28,463 bases of DNA, from the IMG/VR virus record IMGVR_UViG_3300031707_003304, positions 1-28,463 of that record. One strand, given 5' to 3'. The translations under genes and the position numbers were made by a program. Positions 1 to 15,023 of the stretch are shown one piece after another. The number at the start of each line of letters is the position of its first letter. Positions within the stretch are counted from its first letter, which is position 1. The notes under the pieces are model-generated. The model did not search any database and was not told the DNA's origin. It was given only the letters and a program-made list of their open reading frames with translations. Source of the DNA: a virus.

Positions 1-1224
1 ACTCCCAATCCATGTCCCCGTGTCCCAGTGCTGTTCCTCGGCGACTCCGTACTTCTCGGCGAGAGCAGTCTCGTAGGAGGCGCGGGTCTCCTCCCATATC
101 TTCTGGTGCTCCTCGGATAATCCACCCTCGCCCGGCTCCCCAGTGGACAATCCGCCGCGCGCCATCGCTTCGGCGATAGCCTGATGCGCAAGTGGGTAGT
201 GCTCCAACAACCAATCGGGGTCGAGTTTCCATACAGCATAGGCCTCGGCTACGTTCTCGCCCGGAGTAAGTTGTCCGTTGATTCCATCAACCGTCTCGTC
301 GCCGAATTTTCCCGTGAATGCACCTTGGTCTTGAAGCGCGAACGCCCGCCCATCGGCCAGCATTTGGTCGCTCAGGGCGTGACCTTCCTCGTGCGCCATG
401 ACTTGCGCCCGTCCCGCATCGTCGAGTTCGTAAAACTTCGGCCCGACGGCAATAACTCCGTTCCGGTATTCGGCCTCGGTTGTTAGGTGCTCGTCATAAA
501 CTACAGAGAGTTTTCCGCCGGGCAGACTGCCGCCGACCTCGCCCGGCCTACCCTCGTGGCCGAAGTGCCCGGAGCCGGGGCCGCCGCTGGTCACGAGCGG
601 CCCGCGCTCGCGCACGAGCGGTAGTCGTACATCCAACTGTACGTCGTAGTCGTGGCGCGTGATTGAAAATCCGCGGACCCACAACTCGAACGGCTCGATG
701 CTGGTCGGTACGTCCTTCTGCTCAAGGGTGCTATACCCAAGGGTGACATGGGGACTGTAGATTGTCGGGTCCGCGAAGTCGCCCAGTTTCAGGTCCATCG
801 AGAGTGCCCGATTGATAATCTCCGATTGCAGGCGCAGGAGGGCGGGCGTTGCGGTCACGTCCAACACGACGGCGCTCAGGCCCTCGCCATTGGGCGGAAA
901 GACCTTTATCCCGCGCGCGGTCACGATGAACGGAATCGGAAGCGACAGGTTCTCTTTCAGAGCCGCTATCTGTTCGTCGGTCGCGTCGGGGAAGTAGGCC
1001 AGCGAGATGTGGAAGGTGCCCGGCTCCTGCGGCTCGAACGGGCGCTTGAGAACACCGGCAATGCCGGAGACACGGCGCTGGTAGGCGGCAATCTTCGCAA
1101 GCGCCGCCTCGTCAACATCGTCGTCGCCGTAGCGCGACAGGAACGCGCAGGCATAGGCGGCGCGATTGGCTTCCGCTAACGCCGCCCTGTTGATAATCTG
1201 CGCCGCCCACGAGGGCATGTGCAT
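1..1224 (-). CDS. 2H phosphoesterase fused to HExxH metallopeptidase (3' end outside window)
   Basis: The frame is open from ATG 1224, preceded by a GAGGCGG ribosome site, to the window edge: 408 residues with no stop. The N-terminal part has the two HxS/T motifs of 2H phosphoesterases (LigT/CPDase-like), H72-I-S74 in FHISLAYF and H159-V-T161 in HVTLGY. This fold hydrolyses 2',3'-cyclic phosphates or 2'-5' bonds, and also includes phage Acb1, which cleaves CBASS cyclic nucleotides. Residues 214-232 are a GGPGSGHFGHEGRPGE linker of a kind seen in phage head-associated proteins. The C-terminal part has a zinc-protease motif H278-E-E-G-H282, with E327 in ENVAEAYAVW a likely third ligand. It follows the portal and terminase genes in the same transcript direction, so it could be virion-associated. 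Domain calls rest on motifs; the substrate is unknown. Confidence 0.85.
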   Translation of the reverse strand, partial: MHMPSWAAQIINRAALAEANRAAYACAFLSRYGDDDVDEAALAKIAAYQRRVSGIAGVLKRPFEPQEPGTFHISLAYFPDATDEQIAALKENLSLPIPFIVTARGIKVFPPNGEGLSAVVLDVTATPALLRLQSEIINRALSMDLKLGDFADPTIYSPHVTLGYSTLEQKDVPTSIEPFELWVRGFSITRHDYDVQLDVRLPLVRERGPLVTSGGPGSGHFGHEGRPGEVGGSLPGGKLSVVYDEHLTTEAEYRNGVIAVGPKFYELDDAGRAQVMAHEEGHALSDQMLADGRAFALQDQGAFTGKFGDETVDGINGQLTPGENVAEAYAVWKLDPDWLLEHYPLAHQAIAEAMARGGLSTGEPGEGGLSEEHQKIWEETRASYETALAEKYGVAEEQHWDTGTWIGS

Positions 1225-1236
1225 GGCCGCCTCTTT

Positions 1237-1533
1237 CTAGCGCAACTCGACCACTCCCCACTTCATTTGCCACCCGGCCGATGCGAGGTGGGCAATGAAA
1301 CTCGCCACAACGCCCGTGACGAACTCACTGAGCACAGGCACGTAGATGGGCGCAAGCCAGTTCTGCCCGAACAGAAAGGCCAGCGCGAAGTACACCCAAC
1401 AGCCGGTGCAAAAGTCGCACTCCGCTTGCTCAGTGAGAAACGGATGCAACTTCCAGATGCGAGTCGTGGGGCCGGATGTCTGCCAGAGCCATATCAGGAG
1501 CCGCCCCACGACCGCATAGGCGATAAGGTTCAT
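1237..1533 (-). CDS. small membrane protein with CxFCxGCW motif
   Basis: 98 residues starting MNLIAYAVV. The start is chosen at ATG 1533 because it forms a 4-base ATGA overlap with the stop of the upstream gene; a longer in-frame start at 1548 is less likely. Three hydrophobic stretches are visible: near the N terminus, after the Cys motif (WVYFALAFLFG) and at VLSEFVTGVVASFIAHLA. A Cys-rich loop E-C-D-F-C-T-G-C-W sits between the first two, reminiscent of phage membrane proteins with CxxC near a Trp. It lies between the portal module and the 2H/metallopeptidase gene. Its function is not recognised. Confidence 0.75.
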   Translation of the reverse strand: MNLIAYAVVGRLLIWLWQTSGPTTRIWKLHPFLTEQAECDFCTGCWVYFALAFLFGQNWLAPIYVPVLSEFVTGVVASFIAHLASAGWQMKWGVVELR

Positions 1534-2036
1534 CGCACGAGCATCCACGCCATGTTGATGCCGTTGGTGTCGAAGCCGATGTTGCGCACGAACTCAAGCC
1601 GCCAGCCGTCCGACAGGTAGCCCGACAGCACGGCATCGGCCTGAAAGCCCGTGACCGTGCCAAGTTGGCCGCCGCCCGACAACGTGCGGACGATGTGCTT
1701 GGCTTCCGACAGCCCCGCTCCCTCTTCCGAGCGGGTCAGAATCCACAGCGCGAGTACACCTTCCGGGTTGATGCCAAGGATTTGAAAATCCTTGACGCCC
1801 CAACCCTCTTTGAGCATCTTACCTATTCCCTCGTCGGCGTCCGGTCCAGTCCACGCGCCCGCGGCAGGGTTGCTCGCGCGCGCTAGGGTGCGCCGGATGT
1901 GGTAAATCTCCGTCGCGTGTTCCGGCGGTACCTTCGACGGCCCATCGTCGGGCAGGACCTTCGTGGTGTCCGTCGCCTTCGGTTCCGTCGCGTCCTTCGC
2001 CGCCTTGCTTGTTGCTGTTGCTGTTGCCCTTGGCAT
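1530..2036 (-). CDS. hypothetical protein in head module
   Basis: 168 residues. The start ATG 2036 has a strong GGGAGGTT site and follows the stop of the zinc-ribbon gene at 2038. The first ~45 residues are low-complexity, rich in Ala, Thr and Lys (MPRATATATSKAAKDATEP), and look disordered. The rest is a compact globular sequence with GWGVKDFQILGINPEGVLALWILTR and an Ala/Gly-rich middle. No family is recognised. Position between portal and fusion protein suggests a head-completion, decoration or scaffolding-like role, but this is inference from order only. Confidence 0.75.
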   Translation of the reverse strand: MPRATATATSKAAKDATEPKATDTTKVLPDDGPSKVPPEHATEIYHIRRTLARASNPAAGAWTGPDADEGIGKMLKEGWGVKDFQILGINPEGVLALWILTRSEEGAGLSEAKHIVRTLSGGGQLGTVTGFQADAVLSGYLSDGWRLEFVRNIGFDTNGINMAWMLVR

Positions 2037-2343: not shown

Positions 2344-4770
2344 CTACCGCCCGTTCCACGGACGGTATTCGTTCGTCCCCACCTTGGCCAGAAGTTCGGC
2401 CTCGTTGAACATGATGTCGCAGTGGCACACGCTCGGATGCGCGGGCGGCACGGGCGACGGTTCATTGCGGAACACGGTCGGGTACGCAAAGTCAATCGGC
2501 ACAAAACCCATGGCCTCGTTGCCCGCGCACAGGGGACATGGGTGCACGTTGCCCTTGGCTGTTACGCCGCGTTTGCCGCGGTGGACCCACGCCTTCGTGG
2601 TCAGGCCGGACATCTTGAACTGCACGAGTCGCCCGGTCGTTTCGGCGTGCGCGATTTCGGTATTGACAATCGAGTTGCTCCGCGCCTCGCTCATCTCCAC
2701 GAGTCCCTCGCGGATGAGTTTCGTGACATCGCCGATGAAGCCATCTACTTGCAGGATGTGTTCGGCGGTCGCGCCGTCACGAATGGCCTGCGCAATCTCC
2801 GGCGAACTCAAACCCTGCCGCACACCGGCTACCACGACACGCCGGATGAAGGTCTTGGTCGCTTCGTCCACCCAGCGCACGAGATTAGCCGCGCGCTCCT
2901 CAAGCAAGGCGATGGTCGCCCTGTTCCTGAGGTTGAATGAATATCCCGTCATGGCGTAGTCACGCCGCTGGCCCGCCTCGTACAGCGCGTGCACGATGGC
3001 ATAGCCCGCGTTCACCGCCCCGGCCTCCGCCGCCGCGCGCATCACGACCATGATTTCGTCCTTGCGGGCGTCGGTGGCTGTTCTCCACCACGGGTCATCG
3101 GCCAGATGCTTTTCGACCTCGACCCGCAGTTCGTCGGCCTCACTTCGCAACACGGCGTTCTCGACCTCGTTCGGCTCGTCGAAGTCGAAGGCCAGCATCT
3201 CGGGGAGCCACGTTTCCTCGATTTGTTCATCGGTGAGGTCGAGGAAAGTTCGCTCCACCTTGGGGACCATGGCCGTTGTTACCGCGCGCACAAGCCTGCG
3301 CAATCGCGGTTCCTCGGCGCGCTCGACCACGAGGGTGAGCGCCGGTTTGATAATCCGCGCCATCTCGGCTTGCAGTTGCTCTGTGGTTCGCGTTCCGGCA
3401 ATACCGCGCTGTGTCAGCAGTCCACTATCGCCTCGCCCGCCCTGACTCACGGGGACCCCGCCCAACTCCGCGGATGACGTGCCGCTGGCCGCCGCCTCAA
3501 GAGGATTCGGCGGCATGATGGGAAGGCCGGTCGCCGGGTCAATAGCGCCGGGCATCGCCGGAGGCGGAGGCAAAGCCTCGGGGTCAATCTCGACCTTGAG
3601 CACGCCGGTCGCGACCAATTCGCGCCGCCCTTCCGCCGCGTCAATGAAACCCGCTTCCTTGGCGGCCGTCAGCCCTTGCACGTATGTCATCACGGCGCGG
3701 CCCTTGCCGAGCGTCACTTCGTCATCGTCTATCTTCCAGATGAATTTGAGTTTGTCTCCAACAACGCGGTCCATGGCGTTCTCAAGTTTGGTTCGGACAA
3801 GTGCCTGTCCACTGCGCCTCGATTGCCGCTCTCCCCGGATAACGCCCGCAAGAGTTTTCTCGCCGCCCATGTCCTCCATGCCGATGTCAGAGAGTCGCAT
3901 CCCGTAAGCCGCGGCAAGGATTTGCGCGTACTTGATGGTTGTCTTGTCGTATAGCAGGTCGGTGGGAGGGCGGTTGAAAGGAATCCACACGGCGGGTTTT
4001 GTGTGCTGATAGAGAACGGGCACCTTGAATCCGTCGATTCCAGTGAACAGAGCCTTGGCATTGGCAATCCACTCCTCGGCATCCTGTTCCTCCATGTCAA
4101 TCAGGTCGAGGATGCCCGCCTCGGGCGTGTCGAGCAAGAGATTCGCGTAATAGCGGTCGCCGCGGAACAGCATCTCAATGGCGAGGTACGCCTTCTCAGG
4201 CGGGGCCATGCCCCATCCCTTGCGGTCAATCTCCGGGCGCGGCGTCACGTACAACCGCTCGATGGCATACTTTGGAAATCTGACGGTGCGCGTGGGCATC
4301 TGCTTGACCCGTTGTTCAACCGGGTCATCCGGGTCGCCAGTGGGCAGAAGTGTCGCACCGTCAATGTGTTCTATCCACAGCACATCGCCGTCGGGCGAGT
4401 CGTCCTCGCGGCCCACCTCGAACGCGCCGCCGAACGGAATGTCGAGCATGTCCTGCAATACGAGTTCGCAGAATGTGTCGAAGTCGCCCTCGGCGTCCTC
4501 GAGGACTTTCTTGATTCGGTCAATGGACTTCTTGAGGCTGGGGCTTTGCTTGTCGCCGGGGTCCTTCGCCACGACATCCCACGGGGTTGATAATACGTTC
4601 TGAATGAGTGTGTCGCGACAGACGAGGCAGAGCGCCTGATTGCGCACGAACGAGCGCCACCGCTCGGCCATGAGCCAGCCCGGATGCCCCCAGTAGGGGA
4701 CCACGCGGTTGAGGTACGCGGGCAGATGCAGGGCGCGCGCGTTATCGGTTGGGTCAGTAGGCTTTGCCAT
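2344..4770 (-). CDS. portal protein fused to MuF-like minor head protein
   Basis: 808 residues. The N-terminal ~430 residues read as a portal (connector) protein: MAERWRSFVRNQALC, the WDVVAKDP segment, and the FKVPVLYQHTKPAVWIPF region typical of portals that interact with terminase. A Pro/Gly/Ala linker follows around residues 400-450. From about residue 600 the sequence matches Mu F-type minor head proteins: ARSNSIVNTEIAHAETTGR, then C745-P-L-C748 and HPSVCHC near 778-784. Portals and MuF proteins are normally separate adjacent genes, so this single frame is a natural fusion. The ATG at 4770 has GGAG 7 bases upstream. It lies directly downstream of the large terminase, as expected for a head module. 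Confidence 0.92.
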   Translation of the reverse strand: MAKPTDPTDNARALHLPAYLNRVVPYWGHPGWLMAERWRSFVRNQALCLVCRDTLIQNVLSTPWDVVAKDPGDKQSPSLKKSIDRIKKVLEDAEGDFDTFCELVLQDMLDIPFGGAFEVGREDDSPDGDVLWIEHIDGATLLPTGDPDDPVEQRVKQMPTRTVRFPKYAIERLYVTPRPEIDRKGWGMAPPEKAYLAIEMLFRGDRYYANLLLDTPEAGILDLIDMEEQDAEEWIANAKALFTGIDGFKVPVLYQHTKPAVWIPFNRPPTDLLYDKTTIKYAQILAAAYGMRLSDIGMEDMGGEKTLAGVIRGERQSRRSGQALVRTKLENAMDRVVGDKLKFIWKIDDDEVTLGKGRAVMTYVQGLTAAKEAGFIDAAEGRRELVATGVLKVEIDPEALPPPPAMPGAIDPATGLPIMPPNPLEAAASGTSSAELGGVPVSQGGRGDSGLLTQRGIAGTRTTEQLQAEMARIIKPALTLVVERAEEPRLRRLVRAVTTAMVPKVERTFLDLTDEQIEETWLPEMLAFDFDEPNEVENAVLRSEADELRVEVEKHLADDPWWRTATDARKDEIMVVMRAAAEAGAVNAGYAIVHALYEAGQRRDYAMTGYSFNLRNRATIALLEERAANLVRWVDEATKTFIRRVVVAGVRQGLSSPEIAQAIRDGATAEHILQVDGFIGDVTKLIREGLVEMSEARSNSIVNTEIAHAETTGRLVQFKMSGLTTKAWVHRGKRGVTAKGNVHPCPLCAGNEAMGFVPIDFAYPTVFRNEPSPVPPAHPSVCHCDIMFNEAELLAKVGTNEYRPWNGR

Positions 4771-4937: not shown

Positions 4938-6527
4938 CTATCTTGGCCCCGAAATTGCCTTGAATCCAATCTTGCGCCACTTCGGCTGGCCGGTCTCGAT
5001 GTTGAACGCTCCGTCGGCACTGTCCACTTGGTCATCGTGCTTGCCGTGGTCAAACTCGGCAAGTTCGGCCATGAACTGCTTGTTCCATGGTCCGCGGAGC
5101 AGGAACACGTTGCCAGCGTTCACCTGAGCGGCGAGCGGCATGGCGCGTACCCGCTTGTCGCCGCTTGGCAGGTCGCCGTCAACGTCGAATCCTTGGAGGA
5201 AGCCAATGTAGTCCTGCACCTGCGCCTTGCCCGCCTGCCCACCTTCTTGCTCGATGCGGACCCGCACCCTGCGTCCATCCGTCTGCGCCGTCAACCCGAT
5301 GGTCGCGCGCACGCCCTCGGGTGACGCGCGCATGCGCACCACATCCCAAATGAACGACTTGGCCTCGAACGTTGTCAGACCTGTACCTACGGTCCAGTCC
5401 GGGTCGCTCTTGGATGTCTTGGCCTCTGTACCCGCGAGGTCCCAGTAGCGTGTGCCCTTGTGGACTTCGACTATGCGCGGAGGTTTGCCCGGCTCGTCAG
5501 GGGCATCAACTTCGGCGACCTCCGCAGGCAGTGCGTCCACAATCTGAAGCCGGGCGATATTGAAAACGTCGCCGGTGCTGGCAATCGGGTGCTGTTGGTA
5601 TTCAGCATTCCAGACGAACGGGCTGGCCTTCTCTTTGAGGTCGAGCAAGAACGTCTTTGAAAATCGCTTGGGGGCCAAAGGCGCTTCAATCTCGCGCCCG
5701 AGAATGTCGCCTTCCTCTGCGAGCGCCGGATAGCGCAGGACAGTCCACTCCCCGCCCTCTGTTACCTCGCCCTCGGATTCGAGCAGGCGGCCCGCGAGGT
5801 CGTCGAGATGCCAGCGCGTCATCATAAAGATGACCGCGCTGTTCTCCCACATGCGGGTGCGGAACGTGCCGTCGTACCAACTCCACGCCCCCTCGCGCAT
5901 GGTCTCCGATTGCGCGTCCGCCCAACTTTCGAACGGGTCATCAATGATGCCAAGGCCGAACCCGTGGCCGGTGATAGGGCCGCCGAGGCCCGCGGCCAGC
6001 GCATAGCCCTTGCGCCCGAGGATGTGCCAATCTGTGACGCGCCGGTTGTTCGGGTCCCCGTTGATGTACGGGAAGATGTCGCGGTAGGCGTCGGACTCAA
6101 GGACACTGCGCGCGCGTCGGCTGTTGTCGTAGGCTTTGGCCGCCGCGTAGGAAATGAGCGCAACGGGCAAGTCCGGGTTGTGCGCCAGCCAGAAGGGCGG
6201 CGTGCGGATGCTCACCAGTTCCGACTTGCCGTGCTGGGGCGGCGCGAAAATCATCAGTTTGGGAATCTCGCGCGTGCCGTCCGCGCGCGGGATGACGACC
6301 TTCTGCAACGCCCCGGCAAGGTGCCGATGAAACTCCTCGGTCTTGTAGGTCGGGTAGGTATGCTCGGTGAAATCAATGAGCGACGTGCGGGCGGCACGCA
6401 TCTTGGCCGCCACTGCCGGGTCGTTCGGTTCCGGCGGGTCGGCGGCTTGCGCGATTCCAACCGCCCTGTCGCTTATCCAGTCCTCGGGCGGGATGCGGAA
6501 TTTGTACTGCGTGTCGCGGACAACCAC
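4938..6527 (-). CDS. terminase large subunit
   Basis: 529 residues; the packaging motor ATPase and headful or site-specific nuclease. Walker A is APPQHGKS (residues 95-102), Walker B is GLGIIDD (192-197), and the MTRWH segment near 236-240 matches the region after Walker B. The C-terminal RNase H-like nuclease shows YWDLAG (first Asp ~363) and HDDQVDSADG (497-506). Start is GTG 6527 with GGAGG 7 bases upstream. The length is typical for the family. It lies upstream of portal and downstream of a zinc-binding candidate small terminase. Confidence 0.95.
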   Translation of the reverse strand: MVVRDTQYKFRIPPEDWISDRAVGIAQAADPPEPNDPAVAAKMRAARTSLIDFTEHTYPTYKTEEFHRHLAGALQKVVIPRADGTREIPKLMIFAPPQHGKSELVSIRTPPFWLAHNPDLPVALISYAAAKAYDNSRRARSVLESDAYRDIFPYINGDPNNRRVTDWHILGRKGYALAAGLGGPITGHGFGLGIIDDPFESWADAQSETMREGAWSWYDGTFRTRMWENSAVIFMMTRWHLDDLAGRLLESEGEVTEGGEWTVLRYPALAEEGDILGREIEAPLAPKRFSKTFLLDLKEKASPFVWNAEYQQHPIASTGDVFNIARLQIVDALPAEVAEVDAPDEPGKPPRIVEVHKGTRYWDLAGTEAKTSKSDPDWTVGTGLTTFEAKSFIWDVVRMRASPEGVRATIGLTAQTDGRRVRVRIEQEGGQAGKAQVQDYIGFLQGFDVDGDLPSGDKRVRAMPLAAQVNAGNVFLLRGPWNKQFMAELAEFDHGKHDDQVDSADGAFNIETGQPKWRKIGFKAISGPR

Positions 6528-9657: not shown

Positions 9658-10043
9658 GTCCCTCCCTTATCGGCGGAGCGGAGGGCGGCGCGCACCCGCT
9701 TGGCAATTCCTCGAGGCCAATTCACCCAATTGTCGGCGTCGCGCAGAAGTGTCTCCAACTCCGCCACCCGCGATTGCGCATCCTCATAGGCAACTAGATT
9801 GGCCGCGTTGACGCCCTCGGCATACGCCACCCGCGATTCGAGGGAGGACTTGGCGGTTTCGAGGCCACGAATGTATGCGACAATTTCCCCATAATCGCCG
9901 AGATGAAAAGCACAGCCCTCTTGGGTACACATCAGGAATGCGGCCTGCCTTGGTTGAGGAGGCCCGTCATCCGTTTCAACAACGGCTGTGTCCATGAAGT
10001 AACGTGGCTCGGCGCAACTGTGCTTATCCTTCGCGTCCATCAT
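9654..10043 (-). CDS. MMDAK-family small protein, copy 2
   Basis: 129 residues starting MMDAKDKHSCAEPRYFMDTA. It contains a coiled-coil-like part with two related repeats, SSLESRVAYAEG and DAQSRVAELETLL, and ends RVRAALRSADKGGT, like the end of copy 3 (DAALRSAAEVTP). ATG 10043 overlaps the stop of copy 3 by ATGA. Repeated elements in both DNA and protein point to tandem duplication rather than convergence. Confidence 0.7.
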   Translation of the reverse strand: MMDAKDKHSCAEPRYFMDTAVVETDDGPPQPRQAAFLMCTQEGCAFHLGDYGEIVAYIRGLETAKSSLESRVAYAEGVNAANLVAYEDAQSRVAELETLLRDADNWVNWPRGIAKRVRAALRSADKGGT

Positions 10044-10939
10044 GGCGTCACCTCGGCGGCGGAGCGGAGGGCGGCATCTCTGTTGTGTGGGTCAAGAATT
10101 GCGCGGGCATATAAGTCCCAGCCTGCGTCGCCATTCAACGCATGCCGAATGGCCTTCTCCAAAAGCCCGAGGTGGCCGTGCAGGCGCTCGTTGTCTTTTA
10201 TGCGCGCCTCTGTTGACTCCGCTACCCGCGATTCGAGGGCAGTCTTGGCGGTGATGGTATCGGAGAGGGCGTTCCACAACCGCGTTTCCTCTCGGGTTGC
10301 GTGCTCAAAGCCCACGCCGTTCTTGCGGTAGAGCCTGCCAGTACCCCCGCCTGCGCCCATTTCGTATTGCTCCAACACTTCCTTCGCGTCCATCATGTCC
10401 CTCCTCGCGGCTTTCTCAAGCATCTCGCGCCACTCTTGACATTCACTCGCCATCGCGCCGTGCGTCCGGGGGCGCAGGGCGGCGCGTAGTGCATACAGCG
10501 CCGCGTTGGTTATCACTACGCCGGTCTGATTGAAGATGGCACCGGCCACGAGATTTGCCGCCGCCTCCCTCAGCGCCGCGTTCTCGGTTATCAAAGGCTC
10601 CAATGCCTGAATGCGGGCGAGGGCATTCGTCAACCTACCGCTGAGGCCATCCCGTTCTACTGTCACGGCCAAGGCCATGTCGCACTCTGCCACCAGCGCC
10701 GCGTTCTCCGCCTTGAGGTCAACGACGGTGCCCGCCAGTGTGTCTACCATTCTTTCGAGGCGGTCGGCCCGTTCCTCTTCACTCATGGGGGCATCCGGCT
10801 TCTCGCTCATCTCATCCTCCCGCCGCTTTGCGCCATGTGGCATACTCCGCCCCCAACGCGCGACGGTGTGCGCCCTCAATGCGATGTATCTTTTCAATTC
10901 AAGCGGTGTTTCGCCCGGCGGCTTCGGTTGGTTGGTCAT
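10040..10939 (-). CDS. MMDAK-family copy 3 fused in frame to two upstream small ORFs
   Basis: A single frame open from ATG 10939 (MTNQPKPPGETPLELKRY), which makes an ATGA overlap with the gene upstream, to TGA 10040: 299 residues. Two internal ATGs in the same frame have strong ribosome sites: 10810 (MSEKPDAPMSEEERAD, after GGGAGGATGAG) and 10396 (MMDAKEVLEQYEMG, after GAGGAGGGAC). The middle part is a long coiled coil (TVVDLKAENAALVAECDMAL; LITENAALREAAANL). The pattern suggests three once-separate genes whose stop codons have been lost, so the cell may make the full-length fusion and shorter in-frame products. Confidence 0.6.
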   Translation of the reverse strand: MTNQPKPPGETPLELKRYIALRAHTVARWGRSMPHGAKRREDEMSEKPDAPMSEEERADRLERMVDTLAGTVVDLKAENAALVAECDMALAVTVERDGLSGRLTNALARIQALEPLITENAALREAAANLVAGAIFNQTGVVITNAALYALRAALRPRTHGAMASECQEWREMLEKAARRDMMDAKEVLEQYEMGAGGGTGRLYRKNGVGFEHATREETRLWNALSDTITAKTALESRVAESTEARIKDNERLHGHLGLLEKAIRHALNGDAGWDLYARAILDPHNRDAALRSAAEVTP

Positions 10940-14232: not shown

Positions 14233-14417
14233 GCCGGGCGCTTATCGGAGCGACCGTCCGGCGTCTTTACCTCGTAACATGCTACGAGAGCCGTCGCCGT
14301 TTGCGCCCAGCCCGGTCATACTGGGGTCGAGTGCCTACCGTGAGGGACAGTAGTCCCTTGCGCCGAAGCGCGCCCTCGGCCCCATGTGCCCCGCCACGTC
14401 TGAGGTGGACGGGGCCG
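14233..14417. ncRNA. array of hairpins, probable structured non-coding RNA
   Basis: Hairpins tile the whole stretch: GCCGG/CCGGC enclosing CGCT/AGCG (14233-14262), CTCGTA/TACGAG (14271-14288), CCCGGT/ACTGGG (14311-14325, one G-U pair if plus-strand), GGGAC/GTCCC with loop AGTA (14344-14357), GCGC/GCGC with loop CGAA (14360-14371), and CGGCCCC/GGGGCCG enclosing CCAC/GTGG (14377-14417). No plausible gene is present on either strand. The array ends exactly where the GIY-YIG stop codon begins. It may form one long RNA with 14146-14229 and 13925-14057. Confidence 0.55.
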
Positions 14418-15023
14418 TCATTCTACGTCGCGCCTTGCGCGATACCGCGCCCATTGAGCACTTGCGGCCCTGCTAAGGCGCGCGTGGTATTCTGGATTCT
14501 CGTATGCCTCACGTAGTGCGGCACTCATTTTCGCGCGAGCCTCTGACGTATGATGGTACCCCAAGCCATGCTTATTTCCTATCTTGGACGCAGACAACTT
14601 CGCGCGAGTTTCGGCGCTACATGAATGCCCCAGTAGACCAACACTTATCGCCGCCTTGTGCTCTCTGGTCAATCTGCGTCCGCGTTTGGGTGCACCCATG
14701 CGCTCACACATGTCGGGCGGTCGGACGAGACCGCGACTCGTCTCCACGCACTCCTCTTGGAGGTTGTAGTGACGGCGGGAATTCACTAGGCCCTGCTCGT
14801 ATCGGGTAAGTTCGTGGACCTCGCATCGAACAAGCACGCCTGCCGTGAAGGCTTGTGCGCCATAGACATTCCACGCCGCCTGTAGATGCGCATTCGGATG
14901 TATGCCCCGCCGCAGGCGGCGAATGTGGCGAGCCAGTCGATTTTTCGTGTCCGTCGATTGCCCGATGTATTCCCTCCCGTTGACTGTATTGCAAATGGCG
15001 TAGACGCCAGCAATGCGTTTCAA
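14418..15023 (-). CDS. GIY-YIG endonuclease with NUMOD3-like repeats
   Basis: 201 residues from TTG 15023, which makes a TTGA overlap with the upstream stop; an ATG at 15098 lies inside the upstream gene and would add 25 unlike residues. G6-V-Y-A-I...Y19-I-G21 is the GIY-YIG core, with R29, E76 and N87 in the expected catalytic spacing. The C-terminal half has NUMOD3-type DNA-binding repeats (REHKAAISVGLLG, SAETRAKLSASKIGNKHG, SEARAKMSAAL). This is the architecture of SegA-like free-standing or intron-borne homing endonucleases. It is followed directly by structured RNA and a tRNA. Confidence 0.9.
   Translation of the reverse strand: MKRIAGVYAICNTVNGREYIGQSTDTKNRLARHIRRLRRGIHPNAHLQAAWNVYGAQAFTAGVLVRCEVHELTRYEQGLVNSRRHYNLQEECVETSRGLVRPPDMCERMGAPKRGRRLTREHKAAISVGLLGHSCSAETRAKLSASKIGNKHGLGYHHTSEARAKMSAALREAYENPEYHARLSRAASAQWARYRARRDVE

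Follow-up and report, generated by a model that had tools for sequence, protein, structure and literature searches.

The window that we analyzed (IMGVR_UViG_3300031707_003304; 28,463 nt) begins with a minus-strand frame at 1-1224 that encodes 408 aa from an ATG start codon and is truncated by the left contig end, such that the C-terminus of the protein is absent from the window. The frame is preceded on this strand by three small ORFs, among them ORFs of 103 aa (1237..1548, between the frame and the portal gene) and 168 aa (1530..2036) with no assigned function, as well as the genes for an 808-aa portal protein with a MuF-like/head-morphogenesis C-terminus (2344..4770; phrog_2662, E 1e-15; phrog_2468, E 4e-9) and for the 529-aa terminase large subunit (4938..6527; Pfam and phrog_38, E 4e-82), all on the minus strand. 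The gene is thus a late one, downstream of terminase and portal, in agreement with the head-module position assigned to it in a preliminary description of this DNA. A scan of viral contigs identified a near-identical phage contig (IMGVR_UViG_3300032156_000002, G001; 96,396 bases) that shares 99-100% identity with the window over most of the compared stretch, with a few rearranged stretches. The arrangement differs at window positions 9776-10835 and 14394-15023, amid blocks that are 99-100% identical.

Extension to the left, as the preliminary description had proposed, was possible with G001, which supplies the entire protein (1,939 aa; full copy at L002:6001-11820). This complete copy contains seven modules and six copies of a glycine-rich tag, whose second Gly lies at residues 215, 544, 831, 1119, 1354 and 1643. 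When compared with one another, the modules proved mutually dissimilar, apart from the tag and a short GLSTGEPG stretch, a second, phage-specific linker without the tag core that occurs at the end of the zincin-like domain (130..156, minus strand; module 2 residues 143-151 versus module 3 residues 23-31). Module 1 is a 2H phosphoesterase, modules 2, 4 and 7 carry HExxH, module 6 has a JAMM motif (HNHPTGAVLSDSD) and is RadC-like, and modules 3 and 5 received no family assignment. With several disparate catalytic domains in one chain (2H, three HExxH modules and the JAMM motif) and a gene set among the portal-terminase packaging genes, the full-length protein is a phage polyvalent protein, one that is probably packaged in the virion and injected at infection. 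Ten further tags reside in the genes next to it, giving 16 tags in about 17 kb of this phage; these adjoining tagged genes include a P-loop gene that is zeta-toxin-like by eye and a gene whose 1,683-aa product adds two further HExxH modules. The window frame had originally been described as a 2H phosphoesterase joined to an HExxH metallopeptidase by a linker. Both domains and the GGPGSG segment between them are present, yet they make up the first 408 of 1,939 residues of a seven-module protein rather than a two-domain fusion, and the segment is a conserved, phage-wide 20-aa tag rather than a linker. The two-domain observation was right, yet it captured the edge of something larger, the five further modules having been missed because the contig ends there. 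The new part is the portable tag with its phage-specific junction residue.

The 2H domain (aa about 20-205; 610..1167, minus strand) is supported by Pfam, alignment, modeling and PDB matches. Its two motifs, HISL (aa 72-75; 1000..1011) and HVTL (aa 159-162; 739..750), arise together in only 0.06% of 5,000 shuffles of the same residues, and the first 205 residues match 2_5_RNA_ligase2 (E 1e-7) and LigT_PEase (E 2.5e-5) above the Pfam cut-offs. Both histidines are invariant across seven 2H sequences with 22-31% identity to that of the window, most of which lie inside or beside tagged proteins, several of them opening a tagged polyprotein. An AlphaFold model (pLDDT 76) displays the bilobed 2H fold, here LigT-like, and the nearest structures are of the LigT type (LigT, Z 16.6; TT0787, Z 16.7; drCPDase, Z about 16.6), followed by Acb1 (7t26) with Z 12.9. 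LigT/ThpR, TT0787 and drCPDase share the two HxS/T motifs and the fold (Z 16-17) with the window's domain, which differs from them in being the first module of a phage cargo polyprotein and has about 15-22% identity to them. The 2H fold and paired histidines put forward in the preliminary description thus hold, in the model and in the homologues, respectively, whereas a specific link to Acb1 is not favored. Indeed, that the domain is a dedicated anti-CBASS nuclease like Acb1 strikes us as quite unlikely: Acb1 has the fold in common and polyvalent 2H domains have been proposed as degraders of defense nucleotides (PMC5512222), but the LigT/cyclic phosphodiesterase structures are clearly nearer and PADLOC returned no match. 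The fold is settled by the model and its structural matches; the domain would most likely hydrolyze a 2',3'-cyclic phosphate or a 2'-5'/cyclic-nucleotide signal, with host takeover or counter-defense as the outcome. The delivery of counter-defense and a protease with the virion, as previously suggested, agrees with the polyvalent-protein concept (PMC5512222).

The second module contains a zincin-like metallopeptidase domain (aa about 234-356; 157..525, minus strand), in keeping with the metallopeptidase described earlier. It carries HEEGH (aa 278-282; 379..393), replaced by HEVGH, HERAH and HEMAH in homologues, and has relatives in two other tagged loci (L019 and L012), in one of which (L019) the two halves of the module occur as separate tagged modules. 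At pLDDT 57 the model is a weak one; the structures that it matches best, weakly as well, are nonetheless zincins (Foldseek E 0.03, Z 9.1). By inspection and alignment, the Glu of GENVAEAY (aa 322-329; 238..261) is a candidate third zinc ligand, a role to which it is suited, with both alignment and model being weak here. Among all tagged modules, HExxH-type sites occur in 28 of 357, versus 0.2 expected.

The first copy of the tag, GGPGSGHFGHEGRPGEVGGS, spans aa 214-233 (526..585, minus strand) and conforms to a 20-aa consensus, GGPGSG[NH]FGHxGRPGxxGGS. Scans of viral and genome contigs retrieved at least 391 distinct copies from well over 100 phage contigs. While the fixed positions are set by the search expression, R12, P13, G8, V16 and the choice of N or H at position 6 were left free and are nonetheless strongly preferred. 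Tags of one locus agree at 87% of residues; where they share a degenerate residue, the third base is the same in just 37%, which argues that the protein sequence is under selection and that the copies are old. The tag, predicted to be disordered (pLDDT 30-35), behaves as a module prefix: it lies within 12 aa of any possible start in 21 of 250 ORFs, in some as MGG, and within 30 aa of the C-terminus in only 3 of 236. In all 11 records with a terminase above the cut-off, tags are found on the terminase strand and downstream of it. They join portals to effectors, in arrangements such as portal-tag-ART, portal-2H-tag and portal-NUDIX-tag-MuF, and the tagged cargo families include ART, zeta toxin, PARP, GNAT and topoisomerase IB, with a module order that varies between phages. 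Since 123 of 168 module clusters in our first sample are singletons, most of the tagged cargo is undescribed. Six bacterial or archaeal genomes contain the tag once or twice per 2-6 Mb, and it is present in 3 of 295 genomes of one family. At one locus (L065:5743-10911) four adjacent genes each bear an N-terminal tag, the first matching ADP-ribosyltransferase families; a contig of a Methanothrix sp. MAG (L102) has two tagged ORFs on opposite strands, for which an archaeal virus or a binning error are both possible.

Searches for relatives of the tag were negative within their scope. BLAST with the tag against cultured phages and plasmids gave no match, the low-complexity filter masking most of the tag and the near-random codons defeating a DNA search. 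The tag alone matched no PHROG family, and no family of Pfam, PHROG or NCBIfam matched more than a minority of the tagged proteins. A cultured phage with a related portal-NUDIX protein (FP_Brigit) carries no tag in the region read, and a tag with a phage-specific junction residue had no counterpart in the family libraries or the literature searched. The only PDB match, a ribosomal protein, is due to chance. An AT-hook reading of the GRP core was dismissed by eye, as R is replaced by V or I in some copies and the flanks are not basic, and a ubiquitin-tail reading (LRxRGG) was discarded because it fits just 21 of 234 tags and the -1 residue varies from phage to phage.

Immediately before GG, the tags of one phage nearly always have one and the same residue, which differs between phages: R, K, D, L/A, E or N. 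This position was absent from every regular expression and DNA pattern used for the tag, the one mild bias (to R) stemming from the sequence that confirmed matches in the first scan, which had VER before GG. Within-phage identity at -1 is 0.88, compared to a maximum of 0.29 in 2,000 shuffles; position -3 comes next and is weaker (0.38, shuffle maximum 0.28). Because identity at -2 and from -4 to -12 barely exceeds background, the phage-specific -1 residue is not explained by simple copying of the flanks. Overall, 129 of 135 modules match the dialect of their own phage, and when the nearest homologue of a module is encoded by a phage of another dialect, the module follows its own phage in 24 of 25 cases and the other phage in none. 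A second, unrelated tag, H[YF]GPGxHPGTGTxQxxHAG (core HYGPGxHPGTGT), occurs in the polyproteins of a few related R-dialect phages (L040, L031 and L128; contigs IMGVR_UViG_3300037714_000333, 3300037722_001562 and 3300037751_000591, respectively) and is preceded by R in 7 of 7 copies, with V, I or T at -3. Together, the shuffles, the homologue comparison and the second tag imply that something encoded by the phage reads the junction. If the substrates of a prohead protease are recognized by a P1/P3 specificity common to those of one phage, the tags conform to this at P1 and more weakly at P3. In the phage of the window, R precedes GG in 15 of 16 tags, the sole exception being the Ser at the 2H/HEEGH junction (P3-x-P1 is V-T-S; aa 211-213, 586..594, minus strand). 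If our model is right, this site may be cut poorly or not at all, and the 2H and HEEGH domains may stay together.

We then considered which protease might read the junction. The dialect tracks the subfamily of the head protease, with one DUF2213 subfamily accompanying D, another L/A, and an unassigned family of 603-aa proteins R. It also tracks portal families, with terminase, MuF and ART families being mixed, and lineage is consequently a confounder, such that this test by itself does not single out the protease. As an independent hint, the protease/scaffold proteins are enriched in sites of their own dialect (R, 22 versus 7.1 expected; L/A, 49 versus 26.4; D, 25 versus 5.8), each at 0 of 1,000 shuffles, a significance that is overstated because the protein families are small and their members related. 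They are not enriched in the sites of the other two dialects. The L/A enrichment is only 1.9-fold, and family A9 has an excess of E-motif sites as well (2.0-fold; 5 of 1,000 shuffles). All 7 of the 7 D proteins conserve RLD|S and R[LM]D|G, in line with self-processing, and the D family matches Pa193 gp24 (PDB 9b40), a putative scaffold (PMC11042391). DUF2213 (PF09979) lies near tags in D and L/A phages; as a universal partner it was rejected, being found in only 9 of 24 records, and PF09979 was not found in G001. The candidate in the phage of the window is instead the 603-aa protein encoded directly after the last tagged gene (L082:1399-3210; G001 79398-81209). This R-phage candidate (A8) matched no Pfam or protease family, profile comparison with the other two families was not significant, and its H...S...H order is protease-like by eye only. 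Its N-terminus has a four-Cys stretch resembling small high-potential iron-sulfur proteins (PioC, E 0.004). No capsid gene was recognizable just downstream of the cargo block in G001; beyond the block (L082:4743-11933) lie an endonuclease VII-like ORF, two nucleotide-sugar epimerase-like ORFs and a glycosyltransferase-like ORF.

Several known systems resemble parts of this arrangement. The prohead protease gp245 of SPN3US cuts after AXE (PMC10052503), and its sites, like the tag junctions, have P3 and P1 specified, P2 free and a small residue preferred at P1'. Unlike those sites, the junctions vary at P1 and P3 from phage to phage and are then followed by an invariant GG tag. The T4 internal proteins lose a short N-terminal propeptide, which is removed by the prohead protease gp21 (PMC9026906). 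T4 IPI-III and Alt are head-packaged, injected effectors that include an ADP-ribosyltransferase, as the tagged cargo would be if it is packaged likewise. In T4 the targeting signal resides in the leader that is removed, whereas in tagged proteins the conserved sequence follows the proposed cut, many modules are fused in one chain, and the leaders vary or may be missing, the tag directly following the start Met in some proteins. The polyvalent proteins of Iyer et al. 2017 (PMC5512222) share with the polyprotein many disparate domains, including 2H, zincin, JAB/RadC-like and ART, and with the tagged loci the MuF/portal fusions and the terminase-portal context. The main text of that study uses neither linker nor glycine as a word and attributes processing chiefly to zincins, whereas the polyprotein has a recurrent tag with a phage-specific junction residue before its modules. 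It also lists RadC only in polyvalent proteins of conjugative elements and 2H only in phages, in contrast to the 2H domain and RadC-like JAMM motif within one protein here.

We hypothesize, as the somewhat likelier state of affairs, that the tagged proteins are virion cargo cut at P3-x-P1|GG by the head-maturation protease of the phage, with cleavage, packaging and protease all deduced from sequence patterns. Enzymes strung together would be expressed alongside the head genes, enter the virion and reach the host at infection, the disordered 20-residue tag before each module after the first serving as a portable processing cassette. The phage's own protease would cut just before GG, reading P3 and P1 in a dialect of its own ([VIT]xR|GG in R phages, [RK]x[LA]|GG in L/A phages, often RxD|GG in D phages and [LI]xE|GG in E phages), and thereby free single modules that begin with the tag. 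The conserved 20 residues on the prime side exceed what a protease usually needs, and cleavage would explain only part of what the tag does; it may be kept on the freed modules to serve again, for instance in docking in the head or in ejection. The tag could instead be an uncut head-targeting or ejection signal that a structural protein (portal, scaffold or MuF) recognizes, with the -1 residue as part of the docking motif. Such a signal would account for a tag that prefixes modules, that can be extreme N-terminal, that occurs on single-domain proteins and almost never at C-termini, and for a dialect that also follows portal families. Against it, the phage-specific -1 combined with -3 corresponds to the P1/P3 selectivity of prohead proteases, the unrelated second tag has an equal upstream pattern and the protease/scaffold proteins carry matching sites, and we thus regard it as unlikely.

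Still less probable in our estimation is a polyvalent protein of the classical type, whose own zincin modules would process it at tags that act as zincin sites. While zincin self-processing has been proposed by Iyer et al. (PMC5512222), and the three HExxH modules of the polyprotein as well as the excess of HExxH-type sites among all modules speak for it, several phages with 5-12 tags (e.g. L009, L021 and L037) have no HExxH in the tagged modules seen, their loci being partial, and the dialect follows the phage across many without a visible zincin. A tag that merely serves as a flexible spacer, or as a patch of DNA homology through which modules are shuffled, would suit its glycine-rich composition and predicted disorder and the differing module order of the phages. 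Yet Arg, Pro, Val and other residues are preferred beyond Gly and spacers are not expected at N-termini, while the near-random third bases within a locus (0.37) leave little DNA homology to recombine. The codon and N-terminal data already contradict both readings, which we consider highly implausible.

Whether the proposed cleavage extends to a general principle is, in our judgment, evenly balanced: the portable prefix tag with its phage-specific code (P3-x-P1|GG) would mark virion cargo generally, across many unrelated phages, allowing them to collect effectors from each other, to tune the junction to the head protease that they encode and to fuse or split modules freely. If true, phage proteins delivered at infection, so far mostly found by proteomics phage by phage, would become recognizable by a sequence signature, and scanning for the tag would bring up hundreds of injected effectors that are as yet undescribed. 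The way in which large polyvalent proteins are divided into working units becomes testable, and the substrate specificities of uncharacterized head proteases are predicted from their sequences alone. It also suggests a way for cargo to move between phages with different proteases.
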